Of a DNA stretch of 64,000 bases, positions 58,361 to 60,599 are shown piece after piece. A program made the position numbers and the translations under genes. The stretch comes from Sphingomonas ginkgonis (GTDB taxonomy: Bacteria > Pseudomonadota > Alphaproteobacteria > Sphingomonadales > Sphingomonadaceae), in assembly GCF_003970925.1 (NCBI RefSeq), contig NZ_RWJF01000001.1, forward strand, positions 62,001 to 126,000, read 5' to 3'. The stretch's first letter is position 1. Each line of letters starts with the position of its first letter. Below the pieces are notes generated by a model that did no database searches, was not told the origin of the DNA, and saw only the letters and a program-made list of their open reading frames with translations.

Positions 58361-58935
58361 GACAGGAAGGCTTTCAGGAAACGCGCGCCGGCCTCGCCGC
58401 TGCGCTCGGGATGGAACTGCGCGCCGAGCCAGTTGCCGGAGCGGACGACCGCGCTGATCGGGCGGACGTGCTCGGCCGACGCGGCGGTCGCGGGACCGAT
58501 GTCGGCGGCATAGCCGTGCGCAAAGTAGAGATAGTCGCCGGTGTCGAGGCCGAGATCCTCGTCGCTGACCGACACTTTGCTCCAGCCCATGTGCGGCACG
58601 GGCAAACCCGGCGCCGGTTCGAGCGCGCGCACCCGGCCAGGGACAATCCCGAGGCCCTCCGTATCGGCTTCCTCGCTGCCGTCGAACAGCAGCTGCATGC
58701 CGAGGCAGATGCCGAGCGCGGGTTGCCTGAGCGTCGGCAGAAGACGATCCAGCTCCCGCGCGCGAAGCTGCTCCATCGCATGTCCCGCCGCGCCGACGCC
58801 GGGGAGGAGGACGCGGTCGGCCGAGGCGAGATCCTCCGGGTCGCCCGTCAGCAGCGGCTCGACTCCGAACCGTCCGAACGACAGCATCAGCGAGCCGATG
58901 TTGCCGCAGCCATAGTCGACGATGGCGAGCTTCAC
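58357..58935 (-). CDS. hisH: Imidazole glycerol phosphate synthase, glutaminase subunit
   Basis: A 192-residue class I glutamine amidotransferase with oxyanion loop PGVGAAGHAM and nucleophile Cys77 in GICLGMQLLF, plus the catalytic His in GAQFHPERSGE. The GTG start overlaps the hisCB stop. Ammonia is passed to HisF. Confidence 0.95.
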   Translation of the reverse strand: MKLAIVDYGCGNIGSLMLSFGRFGVEPLLTGDPEDLASADRVLLPGVGAAGHAMEQLRARELDRLLPTLRQPALGICLGMQLLFDGSEEADTEGLGIVPGRVRALEPAPGLPVPHMGWSKVSVSDEDLGLDTGDYLYFAHGYAADIGPATAASAEHVRPISAVVRSGNWLGAQFHPERSGEAGARFLKAFLS

Positions 58936-60599
58936 AGCACGCCCTTGGTGCTCGGAACGTCCTGGCTGGCGCCCGCGCCCTCGATCCGCACCGCCTGCCG
59001 GAGCGCGCGGCCGAACGCCTTGAAACAGGCCTCGACCTTATGGTGGTCGTTCTCGCCCTCGACCTTCACGTGGATCGCGGCACCGAGCGCGTCGGCAAGC
59101 GAGCGGAAGACGTGTGGGGTCATCTCGGTCGGGTAATCGCCGATGTGGCTGGCCTCGAACGCGCCCTCGAAGCGGGCCAACGGGCGGCCGGAAAGGTCGA
59201 TCAGCACCTGGGCTTCCGCCTCGTCCATCGGCAAAGCGAAACCGAACCGGCCGATCCCGCGCCGCTCGCCGAGCGCGTCCTTGAGCGCCTGGCCGAGCGC
59301 GAGGGCGCAATCCTCGACCGTGTGGTGGGCGTCGATCTCGGTGTCGCCCTCGCAGGACAGGATAAGGCTGAAGCCGGCGTGGGCGGCAATCTGGTCCAGC
59401 ATATGGTCGTAGAAGGGGACGCCGGTGTCGATCCGGCGCGGGGCCGACCGGTCGAGATCCACCGCCACCGCGATCTGGGTTTCCCCGGTGTCGCGGGTGA
59501 CCTCGGCGCGACGGCTCGCTCGTTCGCCGAGCGGGACGCCGAGCGCGGCGAGCGCGGCCTCGTTCTCCGCGTCGGTGCCGATCGTCAGCCGGAGCCCGCC
59601 CGGTGCGGCGTTGGGGCGGAAGCGGATGCGGATGCCGAGCGCGCGGAGTTTCGTGGCGAGCGCGGCCGGCTCGTCGACCTCGAAGAAGAGGAAATTGCCG
59701 CCGCCGTTGCGGATGTTGCGGACGATCGGCGAGCGTTCGAGCAGCCCGGCGAGGCGGTCGCGGTCGGCCTTGATGCGGGCGATCCGCTCGGCGTGAATGG
59801 CGCGGCGGGATGGGGAGAGGGCGAGCATCGCCGCCTCGATCGACAAAGTCGGCAGCGGATAGGGCGGGAGCGCTCGGGCGGCCATGGCGATGACGTCGGG
59901 CGTGCCGATCGCGCAGCCGATCCGCGCGCCCGCCAAGCCATAGGCCTTGGACAGGGTCTTGAGCACGACCAGGTTGTCGCGCCCGCAAGCTTCGGCGGCG
60001 AGGCTCGGGGTCGAGGCGAAGTCGAGATAGGCCTCGTCGACCACCACGATCGTGTCGGGCAGCGCCTCGGCGACCCGGACCAGCTCTTTTGGCGCGATCT
60101 CGTTGCCGGTCGGGTTGTTTGGCGAGCAGATGAAGGCGAGCTTGAGGTCGGCCTCGTCCTTCAGCGCCGCGACGAAGGCGTCGGCGTGGAAGTCATAGTC
60201 GGAGTCGAGCGGGACCTCGATCACCCGGCCGCCCTGCAGCTTCACGAAATGCTCGTAGGCGGAGAAGCTGGGCGTGCAGATCGCGACGGCGTCGGTGCCG
60301 GGGCGGACGAAGGCGCGGATGAGGATCTCGATCGCGTCGTCTGCGCCGCGGGTCACGACGAGGTTGTCCGGCTCGACCCCGTACAGCGCGCTCATCGCCT
60401 GGACGAGACGCGCGGGCTGCGGCTCGGGGTAGCGGTTGACCCTGGTCGCCAGCGCGCCGTCGAGCAGCGGCGGATAGGGGTTCTCGTTGGCATCGAGCTT
60501 GATCGCGTCGCCGCCGAACGCGGCATTCGCCTTGGCGGCGATGTCGAACGGCTCGAGCGCGAGCACTTCGGGGCGGGCGAGGCGGGTGGCGAAGCTCAT
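58932..60599 (-). CDS. hisCB: HisC-HisB fusion: histidinol-phosphate aminotransferase / IGP dehydratase
   Basis: One 555-residue polypeptide carries two his enzymes. Residues 1-355 are HisC, a fold-I PLP aminotransferase (KLDANENPYP at 34-43, SPNNPTGNEI, VVDEAYLDF, Schiff-base Lys218 in KTLSKAYGLAGARIG). Residues 362-555 are a complete HisB dehydratase beginning RRAEVTRDTGETQI, with the Mn-binding DAHHTVED and GENDHHKVEACFKAF. The linker is about ten residues (PLGERASRRAE). ATG 60599 overlaps the hisD stop (ATGA); the frame also opens 21 bases upstream. The two enzymes catalyse successive steps: HisB makes the substrate of HisC. Confidence 0.93.
   Translation of the reverse strand: MSFATRLARPEVLALEPFDIAAKANAAFGGDAIKLDANENPYPPLLDGALATRVNRYPEPQPARLVQAMSALYGVEPDNLVVTRGADDAIEILIRAFVRPGTDAVAICTPSFSAYEHFVKLQGGRVIEVPLDSDYDFHADAFVAALKDEADLKLAFICSPNNPTGNEIAPKELVRVAEALPDTIVVVDEAYLDFASTPSLAAEACGRDNLVVLKTLSKAYGLAGARIGCAIGTPDVIAMAARALPPYPLPTLSIEAAMLALSPSRRAIHAERIARIKADRDRLAGLLERSPIVRNIRNGGGNFLFFEVDEPAALATKLRALGIRIRFRPNAAPGGLRLTIGTDAENEAALAALGVPLGERASRRAEVTRDTGETQIAVAVDLDRSAPRRIDTGVPFYDHMLDQIAAHAGFSLILSCEGDTEIDAHHTVEDCALALGQALKDALGERRGIGRFGFALPMDEAEAQVLIDLSGRPLARFEGAFEASHIGDYPTEMTPHVFRSLADALGAAIHVKVEGENDHHKVEACFKAFGRALRQAVRIEGAGASQDVPSTKGVL

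Follow-up and report, generated by a model that had tools for sequence, protein, structure and literature searches.

A HisC-HisB fusion gene in the histidine operon of Sphingomonas ginkgonis and its probable descent from a hisC-hisNB gene pair

The window analyzed here, a 64,000-nucleotide stretch of the Sphingomonas ginkgonis genome, contains a gene, hisCB, in which the sequences of histidinol-phosphate aminotransferase (HisC) and imidazole-glycerol phosphate dehydratase (HisB, IGPD) share one reading frame (Table 1). It lies within a compact run of minus-strand genes in the order hisR-like-hisG-hisD-[CB]-hisH-hisA-hisF-[IE], beside a separate hisN, and is joined to hisD and to hisH by four-base overlaps. 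The IMPase-type product of hisN is probably a histidinol-phosphatase. A CysI-type sulfite reductase hemoprotein gene (53780-55492) adjoins hisN, and the next gene upstream of the hisR-like gene encodes an ArgR-like repressor (63243-63719; 120.8 bits, below the cut-off of 130.45). No match to the published HisR operator consensus with three or fewer mismatches was found upstream of the hisR-like gene. A weak operator-like site at 63107-63126 has four mismatches, a score reached by about 10% of shuffles; in related loci, the best site has 2–4 mismatches in 14 of 17 cases and ranks within the top 2% of shuffles or better in 8 of 17.

Table 1. Genes, domains and sites of the his locus in the window.
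Feature	Position	Strand	Evidence
hisCB (HisC-HisB fusion, 555 aa)	58932..60599	-	Open frame; families; AlphaFold2 pLDDT 89.7, pTM 0.87
HisC (histidinol-phosphate aminotransferase) domain, residues 9-353	59541..60575	-	TIGR01141, 290.4 bits (cut-off 276.55)
PLP-lysine codon, K218 (= E. coli K214)	59946..59948	-	Alignment to 1fg3
Junction of the domain models, residues 354-361	59517..59540	-	Profile boundaries, start-codon scan
HisB (IGP dehydratase) domain, residues 360-555; B-half match to the HisNB model	58935..59522	-	NF003937, NF002111
hisD	60596..61891	-	TIGR00069, 455.1 bits; its TGA overlaps the hisCB ATG (ATGA)
hisG, long form	61888..62778	-	TIGR00070 and TIGR03455
hisR-like TrpR-family gene (YerC/YecD), operon head	62768..63100	-	TIGR02531, 58.7 bits (cut-off 42.2); PF01371; relatives
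hisH	58357..58935	-	TIGR01855, 177.1 bits; its GTG overlaps the hisCB TGA
hisA	57641..58360	-	TIGR00007, 216.5 bits, just below cut-off (228.95)
hisF	56887..57672	-	TIGR00735, 311.8 bits
hisIE fusion	56252..56911	-	NF002747, 259.2 bits
IMPase-type hisN, convergent	55500..56288	+	TIGR02067, 259.2 bits, below cut-off (275.15)

The hisCB frame runs uninterrupted from an ATG to a TGA, and none of 20000 random base shuffles of it stayed open. Both halves match curated NCBIfam models above their cut-offs, the HisC half as given in Table 1 and the HisB half with 237.1 bits for NF002111 over residues 362-555 (cut-off 231); the corresponding Pfam domains are PF00155 (32-353) and PF00475 (392-533). The best-scoring HisB model is that of bifunctional HisNB, NF003937 (278.5 bits, cut-off 443), which is matched over profile positions 164-355 only, that is over its B half, the N-terminal HisN phosphatase domain being missing from hisCB. 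Alignment to E. coli HisC (1fg3) places Y57, N162, D188, Y191, S217, K218, R226, and R337 opposite Y55, N157, D184, Y187, S213, K214, R222, and R335, so that all eight positions, which we take to be PLP-site residues, are present. In the HisB half, the motif columns H399, H407, H425, H426, E429, H496, H519, H520, and E523 are invariant across 30 fusions and presumably have a role in metal binding. The earlier note on this DNA, made from the sequence alone, had read the frame as one uninterrupted polypeptide with all catalytic residues in both domains and a ten-residue linker; these readings are borne out, the spacer between the two models being about 6–8 residues and thus close to ten. A separate internal start for HisB was also considered: the first in-frame start codon of the region is a GTG at residue 378, inside HisB, and no ATG, GTG or TTG occurs in frame within residues 330-377, which makes a separate full HisB start unlikely. 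Both domains are confidently predicted in the AlphaFold2 model. The best solved-structure matches are E. coli 1fg3 for the HisC half and the IGPD 6fwh for the HisB half (among 60 of 126 listed), and the best solved folds for the model itself are 7szp/1fg3 and again 6fwh; in a Foldseek search each chain matches one half only (50 listed of 1886 matches). hisCB is therefore confirmed as a genuine fusion of HisC and HisB in one polypeptide.

The genome (3.2 Mb, two contigs) has a single gene for IGPD and a single clear one for HisC, the second-best TIGR01141 match reaching 113.9 bits. Across the genus, an unbroken full-length fusion in a single frame occurs in 24 of 37 genomes (S. ginkgonis included), while one genome has a broken copy and 12 are without HisB. 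The broken copy belongs to an assembly of 86% completeness, G009, in which the fusion is split and hisD is broken as well. In a wider search of 61 genus genomes, 42 have IGPD, in 41 of them within an open frame no shorter than 550 residues, G009 being the exception; 24 of the 61 were judged by frame length alone and not by HisC itself. Conservation in close relatives leaves almost no room for a sequencing or assembly artefact such as a missed stop or frameshift between hisC and hisB: G009 is the one genus genome that could speak for it, and against it stand the 24 unbroken frames, the presence of both Pfam domains in all of the best 119 of 7391 related proteins, and a third-position GC content that stays high through the junction. 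HisD and IGPD co-occur or are missing together in all 61 genomes (both in 42, neither in 19, the latter including 12 of 47 good ones), which suggests that histidine synthesis has been lost as a unit, repeatedly, in part of the genus.

The earlier note had also not recognized such a fusion as common. A check of domain architecture speaks otherwise, as the best 119 of 7391 relatives, which carry both domains, also retain the eight HisC residues intact, and the fusion is found in sphingomonads, Caulobacterales, SAR116 and a few Bacteroidota. Named records among at least 80 loci comprise Sphingomonas, Sphingosinicella, Sphingorhabdus, Sphingomicrobium, Peiella, Puniceispirillum/SAR116 and four Bacteroidota. 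In 24 other genomes of the same order, three have the full fusion, 18 a standalone HisB, and three no HisB among the matches listed. Among the matches listed for a class-wide sample of 289 genomes (S. ginkgonis included), five others carry the full-length fusion and four more a partial one (two with a pseudo-HisC, one with a remnant, one at a contig edge); two genomes from other genera of the window’s own family (G096 and G328) have standalone HisB. The HisC-HisB fusion is thus not rare. A plasmid collection yielded 857 matching records, 44 of them covering most of the query. In the eight records examined, no plasmid-borne fusion was found; the matches are two pieces over about 2.1 kb each, and the five annotated records among them have hisC beside a bifunctional hisB. 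One alphaproteobacterial metagenome-assembled genome (MAG; L057) has a hisN-like match (35%) at about 7142, placed between hisD and the fusion gene.

The origin of the fusion was addressed with trees of both halves and with gene order. The HisB tree holds 110 rows, of which 55 carry HisC or its remnant, 29 are HisNB and 26 are standalone; these remain after 23 loci out of 133 were left out (near-duplicates, the broken L028, L051, and L109). A branch with support 100/95 separates standalone HisB from all HisNB and fusions, and the HisB half of the window protein falls on the HisNB side. Alphaproteobacterial fusions adjoin the HisNB of Lysobacteraceae, in an unresolved fork that also includes one gammaproteobacterial and one Elusimicrobia HisNB (the tree bootstrap being unsettled), and the Bacteroidota fusions lie among Bacteroidota HisNB. 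The AU test rejects a common clade for the fusions as a whole (p-AU 7e-83, with groups chosen with the tree in view) but not one for the 51 alphaproteobacterial fusions (p-AU 0.37). The fusion label changes five times on the best HisB tree, three of these changes being forced by the starred branches. Since each change may be a gain or a loss, the claim is limited to more than one origin, which the HisB phylogeny supports.

The tree of HisC (74 rows, with a duplicate row of L085 left out) comes from a quick search and is weak at its deep nodes. A branch with support 98 unites 32 alphaproteobacterial fused HisC with 11 HisC encoded next to hisNB (in Lysobacteraceae, other gammaproteobacteria, Serinicoccus and Elusimicrobia) and six others, three actinobacterial and three alphaproteobacterial; two native Caulobacterales HisC lie outside it. 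Furthermore, the his gene order of the window is that of the Lysobacteraceae his operon, and a hisR-like first gene is common to both. The HisC and HisB matches are 522–555 bases apart in four Lysobacteraceae loci as opposed to 16–49 in the sphingomonad fusions (L051, with a run of N, set aside), so that about one HisN domain is missing from the fusions. These observations point to an ancestral, horizontally acquired operon hisR-hisG-D-C-[NB]-H-A-F-[IE], of the kind found in Lysobacteraceae. Loss of HisN and of the stop codon of hisC, presumably in a single deletion, would have joined HisC directly to HisB. hisCB is very probably a working bifunctional enzyme that arose in this way from an acquired hisC-[NB] operon. 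It would then belong to HisNB by descent and not by architecture.

Loss of the stop codon between native, adjacent alphaproteobacterial hisC and hisB genes would need no HisNB intermediate. A single in-frame stop does part adjacent hisC and hisB in Actinobacteria and in one Bacillota locus, and a fusion by read-through is possible in principle. This route is nevertheless quite unlikely for hisCB, as the fusion HisB nests with HisNB at 100/95, the HisC half stands apart from the two native Caulobacterales HisC, and both the operon order and the hisR-like gene match HisNB operons. A further comparison concerned the phosphatase that a fusion without HisN would require from elsewhere. A separate histidinol-phosphatase candidate is present in all 11 alphaproteobacterial and all four Bacteroidota genomes tested; in nine of the former, the HisN match (TIGR02067) is below the cut-off. 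However, the control genomes match as well (HisN in 14 of 14, HisJ in 10 of 14), and weaker HisN matches (106 and 134 bits) occur in two alphaproteobacteria that have HisNB. Because these families match most controls too, the presence of a separate phosphatase discriminates poorly and is only consistent with the loss of HisN.

Both enzymatic activities of hisCB are probable from its retained residues. The C-terminal HisB domain would dehydrate imidazole-glycerol phosphate (step 6), the N-terminal HisC domain would transaminate the resulting imidazole-acetol phosphate to histidinol phosphate (step 7), and the separate IMPase-type HisN would then remove the phosphate (step 8), hisCB being translated once within an operon of overlapping stops and starts. 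The HisB parts probably assemble into the 24-subunit shell typical of IGPD, with HisC dimers on its outside. This arrangement would fit reports on both enzymes, in which IGPD forms an octahedral 24-mer with its N-terminal sheet turned outward (PMC10978614, in the sections available) and HisC is active as a dimer (PMC3896937, likewise).

Relatives of the fusion reveal a decay of the HisC half. In a survey of 150 genomes from the order to which G147 belongs (Caulobacterales, judging by named matches), 57 loci have an HisNB-type HisB in a long frame (the standalone-type L211 and L212 being left out of this count). The PLP lysine is kept in 15 of them, 16 have a recognizable HisC without the lysine, and 26 have no recognizable HisC, including one with a weak remnant (L192, E 2e-4); these 26 frames were read from stop to stop and may thus reach beyond the translated part. 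Together with 11 loci from elsewhere, the lysine is kept in 23 of 68 loci and lost in 45, where HisC is still recognizably fused in 18 and unrecognizable in 27. A second, standalone HisC accompanies all 45 lysine-less loci (in G170 and G471 a few bits below the cut-off), as opposed to 6 of the 23 lysine-bearing ones (a 242-bit match in G297, below the cut-off, counted as none). The lysine state changes four times on the tree. Fisher’s test gives 2e-11 for the association of lysine loss with a second HisC, yet the species are related, and independent pairs number only three or four, too few for significance; the Fisher value is thus not independent evidence, and the association is a pattern and not proof. 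One genus, g87, is mixed, with ten genomes without the lysine, one with it (G483, Peiella-like) and one without a match to the query (G453), and a MAG named Brevundimonas (L047) keeps the lysine. In L062, G454, G474, G524, and G471, the decayed fusion is followed a few kb further downstream by a standalone hisC, which in L062 lies at about 12120, right after hisIE.

Pseudo-HisC domains without the PLP lysine were observed in L154-L163, L060, L062, and proteins P0121-P0240, which comprise the L118 type (many named Brevundimonas) and other Caulobacterales. In the 120 matches listed for the L118 query, the lysine position is occupied by leucine in 119 and methionine in one; the preceding serine and the following arginine, presumably PLP-phosphate binders, are kept in all 120 and the aspartate in 119, while the segment with the asparagine is missing in 112. 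For the L118 protein, an ordered fold is predicted all along the HisC part (pLDDT above 80 for the most part, 84.6 for the whole protein), with a looser whole (pTM 0.59). In six L118-type pairs, dN/dS is 0.16–0.39 for the pseudo-HisC versus 0.05–0.17 for HisB, two pairs of another lineage give 0.31 and 0.52 for the pseudo-HisC, and the intact fused HisC reaches 0.11–0.38 in seven usable pairs; synonymous sites are partly saturated, and the pair L005/L038 and the saturated pair L170/L171 were left out. Relative to HisB, the pseudo-domain evolves 2.4–6.3 times as fast (eight pairs) and the intact domain 1.2–1.9 times. Constraint on the pseudo-HisC is relaxed without being absent, and purifying selection acts in the pairs tested. 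Judged from these sequences, the fusion persists without HisC catalysis in the decay series.

This series bears on why the two halves stay joined. Channelling of the HisB product, imidazole-acetol phosphate, to the HisC site, a possibility raised by the earlier note, may occur in hisCB, whose domains would catalyze steps 6 and 7, and the junction is short and similar among loci, with 24–29 residues between the counterpart of R337 and the start of HisB in 81 of 89 lysine-bearing loci (some counted twice, four left unmeasured). As the reason for which the fusion exists, channelling is unlikely: the lysine is absent from 45 of the 68 loci with HisNB-type HisB, and 18 of those 45 still have a recognizably fused HisC. 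Several related lineages have thus kept the fused domain without its lysine, so that channelling is not the general reason for keeping the halves together; moreover, many bacteria make histidine with separate enzymes. Conversely, the decayed state of the relatives, in which 120 of 120 listed L118-query matches lack the lysine, could indicate that the HisC half in the window, too, is a mere structural appendage of HisB and that another aminotransferase performs step 7. The window protein has kept each of the eight HisC positions, and the low score of the next best TIGR01141 match in the genome offers no obvious substitute, which makes this very unlikely. A more tentative and rather doubtful proposal is that the fused HisC takes on an additional function in the HisB shell, in assembly or in ligand sensing, the window protein representing the still-bifunctional stage and L118-type proteins a later pseudoenzyme stage. 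In the latter, catalysis would have been lost with the change from lysine to leucine, and selection would maintain most of the domain, its serine and arginine included, as a pseudoenzyme fused to IGP dehydratase.

Comparison with known systems sets hisCB apart from each of them. HisNB (the bifunctional HisB of E. coli; NF003937) likewise has the IGP dehydratase as its C-terminal half and lies in an operon hisGDC[NB]HAF[IE], but its N-terminal partner is the DDDD phosphatase HisN, which in hisCB is missing and replaced by HisC. Standalone HisC and HisB share folds and catalytic residues with hisCB; they differ in that hisCB is one polypeptide, whose HisB does not group with alphaproteobacterial standalone HisB. 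HisIE, HisHF/HIS7, and HisIED/HIS4 also join enzymes of one pathway, although none of them includes hisC in the parts of the accounts available and hisCB most likely followed the loss of an intervening domain. Within the accessible parts of these accounts, fused his genes are given as A, B, D, E, F, H, I, and N, together with five fusion types, the word hisC being absent (PMC1963479), as D, N, B, H, F, I, and E (PMC10138114), and as hisD, hisNB, hisHF, hisIE, HIS4, and HIS7, with hisNB in all Bacteroidetes studied there (PMC8305728); other fusions are named in PMC3896937 and, for Acanthamoeba, in PMC6029752. No fusion with hisC is mentioned in these parts of the five papers. PMC11095007, considered as a source on HisC-HisB, is unrelated in the part available. 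Literature searches found no paper evidently about a HisC-HisB fusion, which does not establish its absence from print. The unfamiliarity expressed in the earlier note accordingly agrees with the histidine literature as far as these parts extend, but not with the genomes, where the fusion is not uncommon. Within the same limits, HisC-HisB is a his-gene fusion with a partner that the accounts of such fusions do not name.

Automatic database names list both functions for some of the fusion proteins, while some sources say only HisC or only HisB; in annotation, such fusions are consequently sometimes reduced to one half. Histidine biosynthesis is a textbook example in the study of gene fusion and of how operons evolve. 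From the present case, it seems that fusions can arise, on more than one occasion, when an operon loses an intervening domain, and that half of a fused enzyme can remain in place without its catalytic lysine. The natural series of intact, lysine-less and unrecognizable HisC domains may help to distinguish channelling, assembly and mere difficulty of loss as reasons for which fusions are kept.
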